From Sulfurovum sp. (GTDB lineage Bacteria > Campylobacterota > Campylobacteria > Campylobacterales > Sulfurovaceae), in the NCBI GenBank assembly GCA_027063305.1, contig JAMORY010000008.1, positions 1 through 64,000 on the forward strand: a DNA stretch of 64,000 nt, written 5' to 3'. How positions within the stretch are numbered: position 1 is the stretch's first letter; every line of letters begins with the position of its first letter. The notes beneath the pieces are model-generated. The model worked only from the letters and a program-made list of their open reading frames with translations. It was not told where the DNA came from and did not search any database. Both the position numbers and the translations under genes were made by a program. This document shows, one piece after another, positions 19,535-47,919 of the stretch.

Positions 19535-20212
19535 TTAAGAGTCTTCCTGCCCGTCAATGTAGGCATAGCCTGTTTCAGGAAGGATAATGATCTTAATATC
19601 GTTAAATGAGTCTGACGTGAATGTGATCTCGCATTGCTTGTTATCGATATAGGTATTGTATGTATTATCGGCACCTCCACTGCCGGAGGTGTCAAGAATC
19701 CCACGATGTGGCCGACCTAAATTATCAAAGGCAATATGTTTTGCATCAGAATCAAGTTCACCATGGCAATCATTGAACGTTACATCAGTAATGTCATAGT
19801 ATTTTGTTAAAAAGACCGTTCTACTTTCATCGCTATCTTCTGTAGCATCTGTTGTAAAAAGGTATTTTTTAGTCAGTGGATCGATAGCAGACTCTTCTTT
19901 GTCTATATTTCCTTCTTGATCCATGTCAGATCCTATTTTGAAGATGATATTGCCGTCATACGATTCAAATCGTATAAGCCATAATCGCTGTAGCCAGTCT
20001 GATGTATCGAAACGATGTTTATTGTCCGTTAAAGCCAAGTGTTGAGTATAGCGTATGGCAGAGAGGATATTGTCTGCTGCTTCTTGCCGTAAGTCTCTGT
20101 TCATTCTTGGTATAGCAAGTGCAACGAGAATACCTAAAATAACAATTACAAAGACAAGCTCAAGTAGTGTAAATGCCGGAATTAGCGTTCGTTTTTTTCT
20201 TTTCATGATCAT
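19535..20212 (-). CDS. MshC-like pseudopilin (GspH type)
   Basis: 225 residues starting with a type IV prepilin signal: basic MIMKRKKRTLIPA, cleavage before FTLLELVFVIVILGILVALAIP with Glu at +5. The soluble part (SAIRYTQHLALTDNKHRFD...) has the GspH/MshC arrangement in which early helix is followed by a beta domain. It is the last gene of the MSHA-like operon and overlaps the previous gene by 4 bases. Expected to be a minor pilin of an inner-membrane-anchored pilus. Confidence 0.82.
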   Translation of the reverse strand: MIMKRKKRTLIPAFTLLELVFVIVILGILVALAIPRMNRDLRQEAADNILSAIRYTQHLALTDNKHRFDTSDWLQRLWLIRFESYDGNIIFKIGSDMDQEGNIDKEESAIDPLTKKYLFTTDATEDSDESRTVFLTKYYDITDVTFNDCHGELDSDAKHIAFDNLGRPHRGILDTSGSGGADNTYNTYIDNKQCEITFTSDSFNDIKIIILPETGYAYIDGQEDS

Positions 20213-20691
20213 ATCTTTTGTAGTGTTCTTTTGTGGTAAGTAATATAGGGTGCATTATCAGGATCGGGATGGTCAGGCTCTTTATATCTGACATAGACAT
20301 CCACAATAAGGTTAAGTGGGGATTTTTCCGTTACTACCGTATCATCCCAAATTCTTGTGGCAGCACAGTTTCCTATAATACCATTTTGACCAATATAGGC
20401 AAGTCTTACATTTACAAGGTAACCGCCATTCTTAGGATCACCTATGGTTGCATCGATATCACTAAGACAGTTCGTTGTATTTCGCTCACCATTTCCCGTT
20501 ACGGCCATAATAGCATATTCTGTATAGCTCTTTGCATAAAGCATCGACTGTTCTCTTTGAAATTGTGCAGTGGTCTCACGGGTCATTTTGGAAGAAAGGT
20601 TCATAACGAATATACCTACACTGGACATTAATACAATAATAATGATCGCCGTAAGGAGTGAAAAAGCCGATCTTGTGTTTTTCTTCTTCAT
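20209..20691 (-). CDS. MshP-like minor pilin
   Basis: 160 residues with the N-terminus MKKKNTRSAFSLLTAIIIIVLMSSVGIFVMNLSSKMTRETTAQFQREQSMLYAKSYTEYAIMAVTG. The prepilin-like segment lacks Glu at +5, as in MshP/PilX-type proteins. A Cys pair (CLSD, GNCAA) could form a disulfide. Start overlaps the MshO-like stop by one base; part of a five-gene operon. Confidence 0.75.
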   Translation of the reverse strand: MKKKNTRSAFSLLTAIIIIVLMSSVGIFVMNLSSKMTRETTAQFQREQSMLYAKSYTEYAIMAVTGNGERNTTNCLSDIDATIGDPKNGGYLVNVRLAYIGQNGIIGNCAATRIWDDTVVTEKSPLNLIVDVYVRYKEPDHPDPDNAPYITYHKRTLQKI

Positions 20692-21527
20692 TAGAATACC
20701 GCCTTTTCTTTACATGAGGTAACGTTATAGTCTTCACTGATCTGTTCTGTTGTACAGAGTTTGAACCTGATAGTATTTCCTGCTCCTTTGAACTTGAATG
20801 TCTTAATATTCTTTGCAAGTCTCTCTTTTGTCTCGCCTTTATCTGATGCGGGAGCTGCATTAAAGTCATAGTAGAGCCAGAGATCACCATCTTCTACCAC
20901 TAATGCATATGAGCTCCATGCAAGTTTGTAGTGTTCATATATCGTTTTTGAATTGGTATCGTTTAGTGTAATCAGGTCATCAGAAGCAGACGCAATAGGA
21001 TAGAATGTTCTATTGGGAAAGTAAACATATGCATCGGAGATATCTTTCCCACTTGGAGAGAGGTTTTGAATGATATTATTGGTTAGCTCCAGGTCGGATC
21101 CGAGTGTCTTGAGATGTGATGTATCAGTTTCTGCATTATCTACATCAATAAATCCACTCCACCCTGGAATACGGTTACTATCGGATGTGATTGCTTCAAA
21201 ACTATTACCATCATAACTTACCCACTGTAATCCCTTATAATCACTCCCTGAACCACTCATTGGGGACTCTAAGGATTCTAAAGTATCATCATTTTTAATA
21301 CGATAGATCGTTCCTGGAATAGCATAGCGTAAGCGATTGGCTACCTGCAGAACGGTAAGTTCTGTTTTGATGGAAGCTCGGTGATGTGCTCTTTGTATAA
21401 TAAAGCTTTCATACGCATTTGCAATGATCTCTGCACCGATAGAAGAGACGATACCTAAGATAATGGTAACAAGAATTAGTTCTACCATAGTAAAGGCAGA
21501 TCTTGCTTTAGAAAGAGGTTGTCTCAT
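20691..21527 (-). CDS. MshO-like pseudopilin
   Basis: 278 residues with prepilin signal SKARSA-FTMVELILVTIILGIVSSIGAEIIANAYESF, Glu at +5. The following LTVLQVANRLRYAIPGTIYR and a C-terminal KTFKFKGAGNTIRFKLCTTEQ fit MshO. RBS and start lie directly after the preceding stop; same operon. Confidence 0.8.
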   Translation of the reverse strand: MRQPLSKARSAFTMVELILVTIILGIVSSIGAEIIANAYESFIIQRAHHRASIKTELTVLQVANRLRYAIPGTIYRIKNDDTLESLESPMSGSGSDYKGLQWVSYDGNSFEAITSDSNRIPGWSGFIDVDNAETDTSHLKTLGSDLELTNNIIQNLSPSGKDISDAYVYFPNRTFYPIASASDDLITLNDTNSKTIYEHYKLAWSSYALVVEDGDLWLYYDFNAAPASDKGETKERLAKNIKTFKFKGAGNTIRFKLCTTEQISEDYNVTSCKEKAVF

Positions 21528-22259
21528 TTAAAAACTCCTTTTCTCAAGCTCATAAGCACCGATATTGCAGACAAAAGAGCGTAAGGTGATCTTTTTTTGA
21601 AGTTCTTCGACATCACTTTGATCGGTTAGCGTAACTTCTATCATTTTTATGTTGGTACTATCGGTATTATTCTGGGTGAATGTATTGAATGTCAATCCCT
21701 CATCAGAACCTGGATCATCATAAGTTCCACCCCCCGGTGAATCATTGATATAATAGACTCTGGTAGTAAGTTCGATCTCACCACTTCCTTCAACATAGTC
21801 ATAAGATGAAGATTCTACTTGGACCAAATTACTTGTACCTATGAAATCATCAACATCATCTTCTCCGGCATCATTGGTATCATTTCCTAGGTTTGATGGT
21901 GAAGTTGCATTGATATTCTTGGTACCATCTTCACGTACAAAAGAGCGGTAACTCTCTTTGGGCGTACCTTTTCTCCATCCACTGTTTTGATAGTTAGAAA
22001 GATTGACATCCCCATCGCTTACGACAAGGATAGGATCAAGATACTCTTCATCTGTATCTCCCTCATCCCAGTGATATCCCATAATAAGGCTGACTTGACT
22101 GGCTACCTCATTGATGGATTCTTGTTGAATTGTTACAAAAGAACTTTGTGTCGCTGTACTAATAAGCATAGGAGCGGACATCAGTGCGATCCCCATAATG
22201 ACGATCGCAAAGATAAGCTCTATCATAGCAATAGCAGGACGTAACACTTTATTATTCAT
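21528..22259 (-). CDS. MshD-like pseudopilin
   Basis: 243 residues; prepilin signal MNNKVLRPAIA-MIELIFAIVIMGIALMSAP with Glu at +4/+5 depending on the cleavage site. A long acidic Asp/Thr/Ser-rich soluble region follows. Placed between the MshQ-like and MshO-like genes, 1 base from each, it is likely the MshD equivalent. Confidence 0.78.
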   Translation of the reverse strand: MNNKVLRPAIAMIELIFAIVIMGIALMSAPMLISTATQSSFVTIQQESINEVASQVSLIMGYHWDEGDTDEEYLDPILVVSDGDVNLSNYQNSGWRKGTPKESYRSFVREDGTKNINATSPSNLGNDTNDAGEDDVDDFIGTSNLVQVESSSYDYVEGSGEIELTTRVYYINDSPGGGTYDDPGSDEGLTFNTFTQNNTDSTNIKMIEVTLTDQSDVEELQKKITLRSFVCNIGAYELEKRSF

Positions 22260-22260
22260 G

Positions 22261-25200
22261 TTACCATCCTAAACGTTTATTCTTTTTGGTGCTACTGTTA
22301 GAATCAAGTACATTTCCTGTTTGACCATACCCTGCCCAATCCATCGTTCCTACGAAATTTACTTGATAGAAAGGATTTGGATCTAAAATATCACTATTTG
22401 GGTTGTAGACCAACCATGAGTTTGTTCCTGTATCAAAGGTGATATTTACTGTGGCTGGAAGTGTTTCCGGCGGCATAACCTCTATATTCTTGTCTATACC
22501 GTTGTTTGTAATGTTAACGGTACTGCTTACCGTACCAATATCTGATTTTAATGTGATATTCCCATCATTATCTTGTGTGGAATGATCAGTTGAGATAAAC
22601 CATTTATAGTCATTGGTCTGACCATTGATCACATCTACACTTGGGCAGTTCTGTGCTGATATCGGCCATTGGTTACAGTATACTTCAACCTTGATCGGTG
22701 TGAATATTACATTGTCTGTAACGTCATCATAGATATCTTTGGTCGCTTTGGCTCGGGCATATACAAATGTAGCATTTTTATCTGCATTGTCACCTCCTGT
22801 TATAGTAGCCACAGTACCACTGCTTGAAGTATAAACAGAAGTTACATTGACATCTATAATCGTTCCATTTACTTCAAATGGATTGATAGGCGTATTATAT
22901 TCTCTCTTATAATTAAACAGTAATCTTTGAGTTTTATTGCTATCATCCCAAGCTATAGTATGTGTACCATTGGCATCACTGCCGCCAAACCCCAATAGTG
23001 CACTTGAGACATTTTTATCTATGACTGTCATATTTCTCTCTGTACCATCAGGGAAAGTCACCGTATATGGCACAGTGATATTAACTTCCAGAGGGTTTTC
23101 ATAGTATTTACTGCCTTTACGGAAGTTCTTGGTTACATCTCCCTTTGCATTGACAGCTTTAATCGTAAGCTCTACATGGGCTGACATATTAAGATCACTA
23201 CTTAGATATGTAAGATTTTGGTCTTTTCTTCTGTTGGTTACATTGACTTCTTTAAGCTCAAAATGATCAGGGATAAATGTAGCATTTTTCTCTCCGCATA
23301 TATAGGTATGAGCATGAGAATCATTACAGTCCATTGGGGTGTCATCATTGTCTACGGCTGCCCAGTTTTTATCATAAACAATAAGCGTAATCAAACCTAC
23401 ATCATCATAACTCACAGGTATAACCTCCTGTGCATTGGCAGGTTCTGTAGCAGTAAAGCTGGATTTTCCAGCAACACTGTAAGCAGTTACCGAAGTATTG
23501 ATATCGACATCACCAAAGAGCAATCCGGAAGTATCAATCGTACCGTCTTTAAAATATTTGGTTGCATTTCCATCAAGATCATTCGTCCAATTATAACTGG
23601 TAATATTGTAATCGCCAGATACACTGTCATCATCATCTTTTGCGGTAAGCGAAAGATTATAATCTTTGCCAGATCTCAAAAGCTCAGGGAAATCAGCGGA
23701 CGAGGTAGATATATCAAATTTATCAGGGCGGATAGCAAAGTTGTCCGAAGAGCATGATCCGGGCATACTTCCCATTGTACATTCGTAACATCCATACGCA
23801 TGATCATACGGTGCATCCCCAACCCCATGATGATTAGGTTTACATGGTTCTCCATTGTTCACTTTACATCTCTGATAGGCTTCCTCTCCGAACGCAAGTT
23901 TGTATTGATGATCTGATGCGACACATTGCGGCATGCCCGGAACGGCATTCCCTCCTGTTGAACTATTTTGTAAACAGGTTGGTCCCCCTTCCAAAATGAG
24001 TTTATTAAAATCAATATATCGCATTCCTATACGAGCTTTGCGAGATATCTTATCTAACTTAAATGCAGGAGTACTTCCTGTTATCTCTCCTTTTTCAATC
24101 ACTGCCATTAGCCATTTTCCGTCAGTATCTTTCAATTTTACAGGATTGTTGCATTCATCATCAAGCAGATAGATAAAGACAGTCATATTTGCGGCATTGT
24201 AGGTCATAGGTGCTGCCGGATCACTATTACCTAAATAAATCACATCAAGACTATACAAGTTTGCATCGGATGAAGTATCAGGAGAATAGGTTTTTTTCGC
24301 CACTCTGGTTTTCAGCCCTTTTCCTGCATCGTAACCGTCTGTTTCATATTTATCAACAGCGTCAACGCTTGTATTGACTTCAAACACCTGATCTGTGATC
24401 TCATCACATTTTTTTAACTCACCTGAATAAAGATGCAGCACGCCGTTTTCATCTTTTTTGATATAGGTACCGACATAGGTACTGCTGTTCAAAAATGACC
24501 CACTTAACTTTGTGTCTGTATAGGTAGAATGTTCATCATCTGGAGCGAAGTCCGGTACAGGGTCGTAGGTGACACTTCTTCCTTGAAACAATCCTCCCAT
24601 ACTCATAAAGCCGGCATCCATCATGTTGCTGTCAGTACACTCACCTGAGCTTTTACGTGATATACCGTCAACGCCACAATCATCAAACATACTGCCGTTG
24701 AACAGCGAGTCAGTTATTAACTGTGTCGAGACATCGGTCAGGTTTTCGTCACTGATATTTCTAAGTGTAATTTGTTTTTCACAGCTTCCTTTAAGAGGTA
24801 TACCTGGTGGAGGGCTTAGTGCTATACTGAAAAAATCACCGATATCTATACATATTGCCGTACCATGTGTGATGGTTTGTGTGTCAGCAATACACATATC
24901 TTCAGCACTGTAGGCATCTTCAATAACACATTTGTCTACTTTGCCGTATTTTTGTGTGCCATCTTCTGTAAAGGTCATATAGATATCAGGATTTGTATTT
25001 CCTATGGAAGCACCAGCACCTTCTACATAGATCGTATGAGCTTGTAGAGCCGAAAAATCTCCAAGCGGATCAAAAATCGTTTCATTTGTAGCAACATTAC
25101 ATTCTGAACCGGTTTTATCGACACCGTCGACGCCGCAGCGGTTGCCGCTTGTCCCGTAGTTCATGCTGATATTGGTGTCCGTGACACTGTGACTGGAAAG

Positions 25201-26100
25201 GTTTCTGAGTTTGATGATTTGCTTACACCCGCTACCACCGACAAAGATGCCGCTGTTAAAACAGCTATCGAGTGCACCACCGCCTTTTGAGTATGTCAAA
25301 GACTCGATACAAACAGGTGGTGTAGCAGATACTGGCGTAGTACTCGGAGCATTGACAGTTACCGTTACCATAGCACTGTCCGTACCGCTGTTTCCGTCAG
25401 AGATACTGTAGTCAAATGTATCGGTACCAGTATAACCATTATCAGGCGTATAGGTGATCGTACCGTCTGCATTGACTGTTGCACTGCCGTGTGACGGACC
25501 ATTGCTTGTTCCCGTTACTGAAAGGGTATCGCCGTCCGCATCGGTATCGTTTGAAAGTACGTTAATAGTAACGGAGGTGTTTTCATCGGTTGATGCCGTA
25601 TCGTCACTGGCTGACGGAGCATGGTTTACAGGGGCACTGTCGTCGTTTTCTATCGTTATGGTAGATGTTTGATCCCCCCATGTGTACTTTTGTGAAGCAT
25701 TTGTCCCACCGTCTTCAATGGTGACCGTAAAGTCCTCATCCGGTTCAACATCCGTATCGCTTTTGATTTGGACAGTGATATCCTGATCTTTGTCGCAGCT
25801 GGAGAGCCATCCTGGAACATCAAATGTAATATCTCCGCTTGCTGATGTGAAATCCGAACCTGATGTAGCGCTTCCGTCATTGGTTTGCCAATGTATTTTA
25901 ATATCTTTTTTGTTAGGGCATTCGGATGCTGAGATTGTCAGTGTGACATTGACTGTTCCCGAATCTCCTTCTGTTTTTGAAACAGATGCTGGGGAGATAC
26001 TGATAGTTGGATTGTTGCTACTGCCCCATCCCGCCCATGCCTCTGTTGTAAATAACAATATACTAAACAATAGCATCAAAAACAACCGTACATTTTTCAT
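22261..26100 (-). CDS. MshQ-like large surface protein with Calx-beta and cadherin-like domains
   Basis: About 1279 residues from the ATG at 26100 (GGAG 7 bases upstream): signal peptide MKNVRLFLMLLFSILLFTTEAWAG; a Calx-beta repeat (ISISPASVSKTEGDSGTVNVTLTI to EDFTVTI); a cadherin-like tandem unit (SDDTASTDENTSVTINVLSN, NGYTGTDTFDYSISDG); Cys-rich repeats (CIESLTYSKGG, CKQIIKLRN); and a C-terminal DUF6701-type region with NFAIRPDKFDIS and FIPDHFELKEV, characteristic of MshQ. A further in-frame ATG at 26166 with GAGGAG would add 22 residues. Reading farther upstream enters the riboswitch and is not coding. First gene of the pilus operon; likely an adhesin or pilus-tip component. Confidence 0.85.
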   Translation of the reverse strand: MKNVRLFLMLLFSILLFTTEAWAGWGSSNNPTISISPASVSKTEGDSGTVNVTLTISASECPNKKDIKIHWQTNDGSATSGSDFTSASGDITFDVPGWLSSCDKDQDITVQIKSDTDVEPDEDFTVTIEDGGTNASQKYTWGDQTSTITIENDDSAPVNHAPSASDDTASTDENTSVTINVLSNDTDADGDTLSVTGTSNGPSHGSATVNADGTITYTPDNGYTGTDTFDYSISDGNSGTDSAMVTVTVNAPSTTPVSATPPVCIESLTYSKGGGALDSCFNSGIFVGGSGCKQIIKLRNLSSHSVTDTNISMNYGTSGNRCGVDGVDKTGSECNVATNETIFDPLGDFSALQAHTIYVEGAGASIGNTNPDIYMTFTEDGTQKYGKVDKCVIEDAYSAEDMCIADTQTITHGTAICIDIGDFFSIALSPPPGIPLKGSCEKQITLRNISDENLTDVSTQLITDSLFNGSMFDDCGVDGISRKSSGECTDSNMMDAGFMSMGGLFQGRSVTYDPVPDFAPDDEHSTYTDTKLSGSFLNSSTYVGTYIKKDENGVLHLYSGELKKCDEITDQVFEVNTSVDAVDKYETDGYDAGKGLKTRVAKKTYSPDTSSDANLYSLDVIYLGNSDPAAPMTYNAANMTVFIYLLDDECNNPVKLKDTDGKWLMAVIEKGEITGSTPAFKLDKISRKARIGMRYIDFNKLILEGGPTCLQNSSTGGNAVPGMPQCVASDHQYKLAFGEEAYQRCKVNNGEPCKPNHHGVGDAPYDHAYGCYECTMGSMPGSCSSDNFAIRPDKFDISTSSADFPELLRSGKDYNLSLTAKDDDDSVSGDYNITSYNWTNDLDGNATKYFKDGTIDTSGLLFGDVDINTSVTAYSVAGKSSFTATEPANAQEVIPVSYDDVGLITLIVYDKNWAAVDNDDTPMDCNDSHAHTYICGEKNATFIPDHFELKEVNVTNRRKDQNLTYLSSDLNMSAHVELTIKAVNAKGDVTKNFRKGSKYYENPLEVNITVPYTVTFPDGTERNMTVIDKNVSSALLGFGGSDANGTHTIAWDDSNKTQRLLFNYKREYNTPINPFEVNGTIIDVNVTSVYTSSSGTVATITGGDNADKNATFVYARAKATKDIYDDVTDNVIFTPIKVEVYCNQWPISAQNCPSVDVINGQTNDYKWFISTDHSTQDNDGNITLKSDIGTVSSTVNITNNGIDKNIEVMPPETLPATVNITFDTGTNSWLVYNPNSDILDPNPFYQVNFVGTMDWAGYGQTGNVLDSNSSTKKNKRLGW

Positions 26101-26111
26101 GATAAAACTCC

Positions 26112-26133
26112 AAAAATCCGGTCGATGCCGGAT
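26112..26133 (-). terminator. Intrinsic terminator in the MSHA operon leader
   Basis: On the reverse strand ATCCGG-catcga-CCGGAT followed by TTTT, between the riboswitch and the MshQ-like ATG. It is placed where an expression platform would be. Confidence 0.65.
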
Positions 26134-26187
26134 GAAATCTGTATGTACATCGAAAAAGGATGCCATAAACAACTCCTCGTCATCTAT

Positions 26188-26260
26188 GGTAGGCAGCCCG
26201 GCTGTCTCGAAAGACCCGTGGCTTTCCGTCCCCGCTTTACAACGGGTTTGGCTTTTCTCC
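26188..26260 (-). promoter_or_regulatory. Class I cyclic-di-GMP riboswitch (GEMM-I)
   Basis: On the reverse strand the leader reads AAGCCAAACC, a P2-like stem CCG...CGG with loop TTGTAAAG, GGGGACGGAAAGCCACGGG, TCTTTCGAGACA, then GCCGGGCTGCC. This reproduces the GEMM-I core (CAAACC, GGGACG.AAAGCC, the second stem, closing strand pairing AGCC/GGCT). It controls a pilus and adhesin operon, a known type of target. A downstream hairpin with a U-tract suggests control by transcription termination; ligand on or off cannot be told from sequence. Confidence 0.85.
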
Positions 26261-26454
26261 ATACAATACTTAAGTAAATATTAACATAATGAAGATAAAA
26301 GTGATATAAAATTGAGATATTTATAAGTTGGAATAATTATTTAACCTATAACTTTATGTGATAAAAAAGTAGTAAACTAAAGTAGTTAACCCGAAATTTA
26401 CACATTTTGAGCTATGATAAGCATTATTAGATTAAACTGTTCAAAGGTTGAAGT

Positions 26455-44691: not shown

Positions 44692-45636
44692 TTGAATACA
44701 ACACAACCAATGTCTTCGCAAAAAAAAGCTACGGTTGTTTCAACATCGGTAGCGACACTGCTGGTCTTTGTTAAGTTGGCGATCGGTATTGCCAGCGGGT
44801 CGGTCGCGGTACTTGCGTCTGCGATCGACTCAATCTTGGATATGGCCGTATCGATCTTTAACTTCTTTGCGATCAAGAAGTCCGAAGAGGAGCCTGATGA
44901 GTTCTACCACTACGGAAAAGGCAAGATACAGGCGATCGCCGGTGTGATAGAGGGCACGATCATTACAATGTCCGGGCTTTACATTATCTATGTTGCGATC
45001 GAGAAGCTTCGGCTGGGTAAAGAGACGACCCTGCTTCTGCCCTCAATCATCGCAATGGGGATCTCGATAGTGGTCACATGGTTCCTTGTCCGTTATCTGC
45101 TCAATGTTGCCGAAGAGACCGATAATATCGTTATTAAAGCGGATGCGCTGCACTATAAGACCGACCTTTGGAGCAACGCGGCGGTTCTCCTCTCATTGGG
45201 CTTGGTCGTTGCTACGGGATATGATGGTATCGATGCCGTGTTCGGGCTTGGTATCGGGCTTTATATCATCTACTCTGCATATGAGATCATCGTAGAGGGT
45301 GTGGAGATACTGCTGGATAAAGCGCTTGATGGGGAAGTGGTGGCACAGATCGGAGAGATCATCTCCAAGCATCCGGAAGTGACAAGCTACCACTGGTTAC
45401 GCACCCGTACGGACGGAACAACGAACTTTGTCGAGTTCCATATGGTACTACAACCCAATATGCTTCTGATCGAGGCACACCGTATCGCTGAAGAGATCGA
45501 AGATAGGATCATGATGCTTGATAAGAACAAAGGATGGGTCATCACTCCCCACTTCGACCCTTATGATGATGAGGAGATGAATGAGGCGCTTCTTCATAGA
45601 AAACCGCTTCATACGGTACAGGGTGTGGAGGCATAA
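44692..45636 (+). CDS. Cation diffusion facilitator (FieF-type metal efflux)
   Basis: 314 residues from a TTG start (AGGAAAC upstream). Six membrane helices; metal-site residues in DSILDM (helix 2) and ADALHYKTDLW (helix 5), HYGKGKIQAIAGVIEG between helices 2 and 3, and a cytosolic C-terminal domain (HPEVTSYHWLRTRTDGTTNFVEFHMVLQ). Exports Fe2+ or Zn2+ with proton antiport. Its stop overlaps the hemD start by one base. Confidence 0.92.
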   Translation: MNTTQPMSSQKKATVVSTSVATLLVFVKLAIGIASGSVAVLASAIDSILDMAVSIFNFFAIKKSEEEPDEFYHYGKGKIQAIAGVIEGTIITMSGLYIIYVAIEKLRLGKETTLLLPSIIAMGISIVVTWFLVRYLLNVAEETDNIVIKADALHYKTDLWSNAAVLLSLGLVVATGYDGIDAVFGLGIGLYIIYSAYEIIVEGVEILLDKALDGEVVAQIGEIISKHPEVTSYHWLRTRTDGTTNFVEFHMVLQPNMLLIEAHRIAEEIEDRIMMLDKNKGWVITPHFDPYDDEEMNEALLHRKPLHTVQGVEA

Positions 45637-46292
45637 TGCAACGTAAGATATATCTGCTTTCTCCGACATCTAAAGAGGGGACATATGCATTGCCGATGAT
45701 CGATTTCAAGGTTACCGCCGATAGTATCGATCTTTCGTCATGCGATACACTGATGTTCACCTCAAAGCAGGCGGTCAAAGTAGCAGATATGTTAAGCAAG
45801 AGTTGGAAATCGCTCCCCACTATTGCAATAGGAGGTGCGACAAAGGCACAGATAGAAGCACTGGGAGGAGAGGTCATCTACTATCCAAAGCGTTTCTACG
45901 GGGAGTCGTTGGCACAGGATATCGCCTCTTTTTTCCGTGACAGAAAGGTGTTATACCTTCGCCCGAGAGTGGTCTCGTTCGATTCCAAGTCCTATTTGGC
46001 GGCACAGGGGATAGAACTGCAAGAACAGATCATTTATGAGACAGGGTGCATCACTTATCAAGAAGGGTCGGCTCCTGAAAAAGGTGCGATCATCATCTTT
46101 ACCTCCCCTTCAACGATACACTGTTTTTTCAGGCAGTTCAGGTGGGATCCAAGTTATAGCGCTGTGATCATCGGTGAGGCGACACGTGCCCATTTACCTG
46201 AAAATGTAGAGTATGTGGTTGCAGATACACCATTAATTGATTCATGTATCGCAAAAGCAAGGGAGATTTTACTCTCTTCTAACACCAAATAG
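45636..46292 (+). CDS. hemD: Uroporphyrinogen-III synthase
   Basis: 218 residues with the loosely conserved HemD pattern: YLLSPTSKEGTYALPMIDFK, CDTLMFTSKQAVK, IAIGGATKAQIEALGG, VLYLRPR, IIIFTSPSTIHCFF and YSAVIIGEATRAHLPENV. It closes hydroxymethylbilane to uroporphyrinogen III on the way to haem. The family is weakly conserved, so confidence rests on several short motifs. Confidence 0.86.
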   Translation: MQRKIYLLSPTSKEGTYALPMIDFKVTADSIDLSSCDTLMFTSKQAVKVADMLSKSWKSLPTIAIGGATKAQIEALGGEVIYYPKRFYGESLAQDIASFFRDRKVLYLRPRVVSFDSKSYLAAQGIELQEQIIYETGCITYQEGSAPEKGAIIIFTSPSTIHCFFRQFRWDPSYSAVIIGEATRAHLPENVEYVVADTPLIDSCIAKAREILLSSNTK

Positions 46293-46641: not shown

Positions 46642-47919
46642 ATGAAAGTATTGATCATAGGCGGCGGCGGTCGTGAATACTCTATCGGATTGGCACTAAG
46701 TAAAGATGAGAACGTAGAGAAGATATGGTTCGCACCGGGGAACGGAGCAACGGATGAACTGGGGGAGAATCTTGCGATCAGCGATTTCAACGAGTTGGCG
46801 GATTTTGTTGAAAAAGAGGGGATCGACCTTACGATCGTGGGACCCGAAGCTCCACTTGTTGACGGTATCGTCGATGTGTTCCAAGCAAGAGGTCTTACAA
46901 TTTTTGGTCCTACTGCTAAAGCGGCACAGTTGGAGGGATCGAAGATCTTCATGAAGAACTTCCTTGCACGTCATAACGTCCCTACTGCCCGATATATAGA
47001 GACGGACTCTTTGGAAGAGGCATATAAGTTCATCAATACCCTAGATGCACCGATCGTTGTAAAAGCAGACGGTCTATGTGGTGGGAAAGGGGTGATCATT
47101 GCCCAAAGCCATGATGAAGCGAAGAAGGCTGCGGGTGAAATGCTCAGTGGTAACTCATTTGGTGAAGCGGGGACGAAGATCGTTGTCGAGGAGTTTTTGG
47201 ACGGATATGAGCTTTCTGTATTTGCTATTTGTGATGGGAAGGATTATGTTGTGCTTCCTGCTGCACAGGACCATAAACGTCTATTAAACAATGATGAGGG
47301 TCCGAACACTGGAGGTATGGGTGCATATGCACCGACACCACTGGTGAACGATGAGATCTACCGTAAGCTTGATGAGCGTGTGATCAAGCCGACCCTTAAG
47401 GGAATGGAAGAGGAGGGAATGCCTTTTACCGGTGTTCTCTTCATCGGTGTGATGGTCGTAAACGGTGAGCCGATGATCCTTGAGTATAATGTACGTTTTG
47501 GTGATCCTGAGTGTGAAGAGTTGATGCCGCTACTTGATTCTCCTGCAAGTGAACTTTTCTATAAAGCAGCGACCGGGGATCTTAAGAGTGCCAATATCAC
47601 CTTTAAGGAGAAGTATGCGGTCGGTGTCGTTATGGCAAGTAAGGACTACCCGTATAAGAGCTCTCCTGCGGCGGAGATCATCGTTGATGATATCCATCAT
47701 GATGAGCTTAAAGAGAATGCACACATCTCTTATGCCGGTGTAAGCCGTGGAGAAGATGGAAAACTCTATGCTACAGGCGGACGTGTGTTGGTATGTGTTG
47801 GTATGGGGGACACGATCAAAGAGGCGCGGGACCGTGCCTATATGTTGGTAGGGCAGGTACACTTTGCCGGGAAACAGTGTCGTACCGATATTGCCTATCA
47901 GGCGTTACAGGACGCATAA
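46642..47919 (+). CDS. purD: Phosphoribosylamine-glycine ligase
   Basis: GAR synthetase of purine synthesis. 425 residues, ATP-grasp fold: KVLIIGGGGREYSIGLAL, LTIVGPEAPLVDGIVDVF, VVKADGLCGGKGVIIA, FLDGYELSVFAICDGKDYVVLPAAQDHKRL, GPNTGGMGAYAPTP, EYNVRFGDPECE. AAAGGAAAC precedes the ATG. Confidence 0.97.
   Translation: MKVLIIGGGGREYSIGLALSKDENVEKIWFAPGNGATDELGENLAISDFNELADFVEKEGIDLTIVGPEAPLVDGIVDVFQARGLTIFGPTAKAAQLEGSKIFMKNFLARHNVPTARYIETDSLEEAYKFINTLDAPIVVKADGLCGGKGVIIAQSHDEAKKAAGEMLSGNSFGEAGTKIVVEEFLDGYELSVFAICDGKDYVVLPAAQDHKRLLNNDEGPNTGGMGAYAPTPLVNDEIYRKLDERVIKPTLKGMEEEGMPFTGVLFIGVMVVNGEPMILEYNVRFGDPECEELMPLLDSPASELFYKAATGDLKSANITFKEKYAVGVVMASKDYPYKSSPAAEIIVDDIHHDELKENAHISYAGVSRGEDGKLYATGGRVLVCVGMGDTIKEARDRAYMLVGQVHFAGKQCRTDIAYQALQDA

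Follow-up and report, generated by a model that had tools for sequence, protein, structure and literature searches.

The type example of the class I cyclic di-GMP riboswitches (c-di-GMP-I, also called GEMM-I; Rfam RF01051 and RF03167) is Vc2 of Vibrio cholerae, in which positions G20, A47 and C92 contact the ligand (PMC11218506). Bc1 of Bacillus thuringiensis, also of the c-di-GMP-I class, has a long expression platform with two intrinsic terminators and regulates mcpE (PMC11218506). The pilM riboswitch of Geobacter is a GEMM-I relative that senses cGAMP and works as a transcriptional ON-switch with a terminator (PMC9262584). On the protein side, the closest described systems are the minor-pilin/tip-adhesin operons, namely mshOPQ of the MSHA system and pilVWX-pilY1, where one large secreted protein is encoded beside several prepilin-like genes.

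The locus considered here lies on the minus strand of the window, that is, the whole 64,000-nucleotide stretch of Sulfurovum sp. DNA that was analysed. It shares with Vc2 the aptamer core, the P1-P2-P3 layout and the three ligand-contacting bases, but differs from it in a C21-G46 pair, in an expression platform of its own (P4, segment R and P5) and in the target operon. With Bc1 it has in common a c-di-GMP-I aptamer followed by a long expression platform, whereas the two intrinsic terminators and the mcpE target are particular to Bc1. Like the Geobacter riboswitch, a relative of its aptamer, it precedes pilus-related genes; unlike it, it carries G20 and has no convincing terminator. As in mshOPQ and pilVWX-pilY1, a large secreted protein accompanies several prepilin-like proteins. 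In the window, however, the large gene comes first, hpf follows the operon, and the large protein gives no Pfam match to the MshQ family at E up to 10.

Aptamer and ligand

The minus strand at 26261-26188 matches the Rfam covariance model c-di-GMP-I-GGC (RF03167) with 67.8 bits (cut-off 59, E 7e-14) and c-di-GMP-I/GEMM-I (RF01051) with 66.5 bits (cut-off 35). Judged by both cut-offs, this segment is a class I c-di-GMP aptamer. The sequence-only reading had claimed a GEMM-I aptamer here and was borne out; all three aptamer motifs that it quoted are present within 26261-26188. The elements of the leader, in the 5' to 3' direction of the minus strand, are the following:

26278-26286, minus strand: extended -10 element TGTTAATAT, read by eye from orthologue leaders
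26262-26269, minus strand: 5' strand of helix P0, GUAUUGUA, at the predicted RNA 5' end; complementary to 26147-26141 and overlapping P1
26257-26263, minus strand: 5' strand of P1, UAUGGAG, pairing with 26192-26185 (covariation; cognate versus permuted pairs, p ~0.01)
26188-26261, minus strand: c-di-GMP-I (GEMM-I) aptamer (RF03167, RF01051), with G20, A47, C92 and a C-G pair at 21-46
26163-26189, minus strand: anti-P1 hairpin P4, CCATAGATGAC-GAGGA-GTTGTTTATGG, exclusive with P1, with CCATA common to both (covariation, permutation, folding)
26152-26162, minus strand: segment R, CATCCTTTTTC; in relatives it is complementary to the Shine-Dalgarno (SD) region, with weak pairing in the window's leader
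26141-26151, minus strand: segment Q, GATGTACATAC, conserved in the alignment; its 3' part is the 3' strand of P0
26116-26133, minus strand: SD-proximal hairpin P5, ATCCGG-CATCGA-CCGGAT, a covarying hairpin in relatives, where it has no U-run
26108-26111, minus strand: SD sequence GGAG, from the sequence; AAAGGUG in relatives

Aptamer positions follow Vc2 numbering and come from our own alignment to the published Vc2 sequence. G20, A47 and C92 occur in all 33 of the family aptamers aligned, and so does the C21-G46 pair, which is the inverse of the G21-C46 of Vc2. We infer that the RNA of 26261-26188 binds c-di-GMP. GEMM-I aptamers of the cGAMP type carry A20, in contrast to the invariant G20 of these 33 aptamers, and the window's genome encodes about 18 GGDEF domains. 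A different cyclic dinucleotide as ligand, for instance 3',3'-cGAMP, which GEMM-I relatives in Geobacter do sense (PMC9262584), appears extremely improbable.

In two relatives (L097:7209-7451 and L090:2143-2385) some 170 nt are inserted into the P3 arm of the aptamer and fold as a single long hairpin (-112.5 kcal/mol, z -11.7), resembling a palindromic mobile element; the core is spared. Just upstream of the riboswitch locus of one relative, L090:725-1388 matches group II intron models (RF02005, 88.9 bits; RF00029, 52.7 bits).

The window's genome contains five c-di-GMP-I riboswitches, two of them in tandem. In a sample of the family, 86 of 150 genomes match, with a maximum of 21 per genome. 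Among the Campylobacterota sampled, matches were found in 43 of 397 genomes and 13 of 68 genera, figures that refute the rarity implied by the earlier statement that few examples are known in this phylum. The tandem pair (L035:4014-4198, on contig C17 of G000; 64.4 and 59.9 bits) precedes a 515-aa secreted glycine-rich protein and is neighboured, as judged by eye, by an asparagine-synthase-like protein and two HprK-like proteins. In the same genome, the aptamers at L036:3974-4068 and L037:3985-4077 lie before proteins of 151 and 178 aa that resemble PAS sensors, and in further genomes of the genus, too, aptamers are followed by gene starts similar to those of these PAS-like proteins.

Genes downstream of the leader

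The ATG at 26100, 88 bases downstream of the aptamer, opens the gene of a 1279-aa secreted protein. An ORF start called mechanically at 26262, inside the aptamer, was rejected because the signal peptide begins at 26100. Four prepilin-like genes follow, and then hpf:

22261-26100, minus strand: large secreted surface protein of 1279 aa, with signal peptide, Calx-beta and cadherin/Big-like domains and a conserved C-terminal half
21528-22259, minus strand: prepilin-like protein 1, PilV-like by eye; N-terminal motif, no family match
20691-21527, minus strand: prepilin-like protein 2, TIGR02532 above cut-off
20209-20691, minus strand: prepilin-like protein 3, PilX/GspK-like (weak GspK match; synteny)
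19535-20212, minus strand: prepilin-like protein 4, with a GspG/GspH-like N-terminus (family search; synteny)

The prepilin N-terminal motif was thus recognised by TIGR02532 above cut-off in one protein and by pattern and synteny in the others. Homologues of the large protein were found mainly in the window's genus and in Sulfurovum records; the C-terminal half is conserved across them and the N-terminal half differs in its domains. The aptamer occurs in the same leader at 24 of the 40 same-genus loci fetched, and nearly all of them have the large protein, the four prepilin-like proteins and hpf in this order. The proposed link between the aptamer and an operon for a surface protein and four prepilins is well supported, and it is conserved across the genus. 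The label 'MshQ-like', and with it membership of the MSHA system, finds no such support in Pfam: nine homologues gave no match to the MshQ family (DUF6701) even at E up to 10, on the assumption that the model is present in the Pfam copy used, so that the label is one of resemblance alone. Direct control of an adhesin by the riboswitch is presumed. The window's genome also encodes two PilB/GspE-type ATPases and three smaller relatives, read as PilT-like.

Elsewhere in the window, 46365-46494 matches the purD RNA motif (88.1 bits); a hemD-like gene (45636-46292) lies upstream of it, and a 425-aa ORF at 46642 comes after it.

Alternative pairings in the expression platform

Orthologue leaders have TGnTATnnT in common, a short and constant distance ahead of the P0 strand. 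Although a simple promoter scan did not list the window's copy, TGTTAATAT at 26286-26278, this shared extended -10 element leads us to expect a transcription start near 26271, upstream of the aptamer. Such a start would speak against the case that the sequence-only reading named as its own refutation, transcription from a point downstream of the aptamer.

Alignment of the leaders reveals five conserved elements after the aptamer: the P1 3' strand, P4, segment R, segment Q and P5. In the relatives P1 is formed by UAYGG and CCRUA, the latter being its 3' strand. P4 reuses these 3' bases, since it is CCRUAAGC that pairs with GCUUAUGG. The covariation of P4 was reached by none of 500 shuffles, and P1 covaries at the same 3' columns. 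Covariation of both helices at shared columns is the direct signature of one strand with two alternative pairings, and a P1 in competition with another structure is what is expected of a c-di-GMP-I riboswitch. When the partner strand of P4 is slid, pairing drops from 88% to 56% or less, and P4 and P5 taken together in a second alignment gave the same covariation outcome. In permutation tests, for which the segments were picked after viewing the alignment, some slices were hand-adjusted and the sequences are related by descent, matched pairs were set against pairs permuted between species: P4 gave p < 0.0001, matched pairs of segment R with the SD sequence (R:SD) were the more stable with p 0.002-0.007, and nine control pairings all gave p above 0.14. 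Folding, which covers nested structures only, prefers the P4 state in the ligand-free RNA, on average by 6.3 kcal/mol, and it is plausible that the binding of ligand could make up this difference.

Segment R has the consensus CAUC..UUU and is complementary to AAAGGUG in most relatives. No column covariation supports R:SD, which is silent in this respect because its base pairs are nearly invariant. For the window's own leader R:SD comes to -3.1 kcal/mol, a weak pairing. Segment Q reads GAUGUACAUAC in the relatives and is complementary to the predicted RNA 5' end, forming P0; this complementarity is conserved across them. Its covariation did not reach significance when the register was held fixed, and P0 as a covarying helix was therefore set aside.

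A covariance model of the platform matches 25 of 175 family genomes, at one site each, which lies at this gene; the exception is G132, where a contig is duplicated. The window's genus accounts for all but one of these genomes, and the window's own genome has a single site. The riboswitch is a good new addition to a known class, and its platform was seen in no genomes but those of the window's genus and one relative. A second type of leader precedes the same gene at L072, L073 and L075, where the aptamer is intact, the platform is different and AGTATAAT is common to all shortly before the start codon.

Two further candidates in this region were set aside. Starting at an ATG at 26166, which is upstream and in frame and has GAGGAG in the loop of P4, the large protein would be 22 residues longer; this frame is not conserved in G102, which indicates that the segment is conserved as RNA and not as peptide. 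A bound-state hairpin of UUAUGUCAUC with GAUGUACAUA is lost in several relatives, and its matched pairs barely beat permuted ones (p 0.06-0.07).

Proposed mode and direction of control

The exchange between P1 and P4, together with an SD-complementary segment after P4, points to a translational switch, and it is probable, sign aside, that such a switch controls the first gene of the operon. Without ligand the RNA would keep P4, and probably also P0, the helix of its 5' end with segment Q. Binding of c-di-GMP would close P1 with bases taken from both P4 and P0, so that both melt. This would free segment R, which in most relatives could then pair with the SD sequence and block ribosome binding; the operon would be turned down by c-di-GMP.

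The sequence-only reading had instead assigned control to an intrinsic terminator, ATCCGG-CATCGA-CCGGAT-TTTT, by which c-di-GMP would attenuate transcription. Part of this stands: a perfect GC-rich 6-bp stem followed by TTTT (4-5 U) is present at 26133-26112 on the minus strand. The hairpin is the window's copy of P5, directly upstream of the SD sequence, which comes immediately after the U-run, and its assignment as an intrinsic terminator does not hold. A terminator scan of the region failed to pick it. Its counterparts in relatives covary and then run through sequences such as AUAAAGGUG, without U-runs, straight into AAAGGUG. Moreover, the predicted folds contain P5 whether P1 or P4 is formed, and folding yielded no anti-terminator or alternative pairing for it, which makes transcription attenuation unlikely, if conceivable in the window's own leader. 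P5 therefore lacks the conserved U-tract and the ligand dependence of a regulated intrinsic terminator, and we regard attenuation at this hairpin as quite unlikely. The sole site that the scan did report is P4 (one found against 0.5 expected by chance). Being exclusive with P1, P4 could in principle terminate transcription in a ligand-sensitive way, CATCCTTTTTC serving as the U-tract. However, five bases outside the U-run (CATCC) separate it from the stem, and relatives such as G143 and G162 have a short U-run or none; this alternative is less likely still.

The sign of a translational switch is harder to assign. In a reading opposite to that given above, P0, P4 and R:SD would together form an H-type pseudoknot that hides the SD sequence in the ligand-free RNA, and closure of P1 by c-di-GMP would turn the operon ON. 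The three pairings use different bases and could coexist, and R lies directly between P4 and the 3' strand of P0. The window's own leader leans this way, since R:SD is weak there and openness of the start codon is 0.83 in the P1 state against 0.35 in the P4 state. c-di-GMP also usually promotes adhesion, which would agree with an ON-switch. On the other hand, the ON reading requires a pseudoknot, which nested folding cannot score, and nested folding over 22 relatives leans the opposite way: openness of the SD sequence is 0.47 in the P4 state and 0.39 in the P1 state (a small difference, p 0.04 uncorrected). The leaders with decayed aptamers also favour OFF. In G116 and G024 P0 is kept and even lengthened (7 and 2, respectively, of 1000 shuffles being as stable) upstream of an intact gene, which under the ON reading would mean a permanently silenced operon; in a third such leader, G112, P0 did not beat shuffles. 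On these grounds we hold the ON-switch to be possible, if short of probable, and weakly favour OFF.

At L108 (G024), L088 (G116), L102 (G112) and L132 (G037) the aptamer core has decayed and parts of the platform are kept before the same kind of gene. They are read as natural loss of ligand sensing.

A more ambitious proposal is that the leader represents a new, pseudoknotted GEMM-I platform. P0 and the anti-P1 hairpin would position an anti-SD strand, and ligand binding at P1 would gate ribosome access without a terminator; the platform would serve one operon and be inherited vertically in the genus. We consider this unlikely as a whole.

c-di-GMP riboswitches abound in this lineage, but in a limited literature collection searched by full text no paper named both a c-di-GMP riboswitch and Sulfurovum. 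The locus also offers a clear test of the direction in which the operon would respond to c-di-GMP. The leader would provide a concrete RNA link from this second messenger to a minor-pilin/surface-protein operon in chemolithotrophs of vents and sediments.
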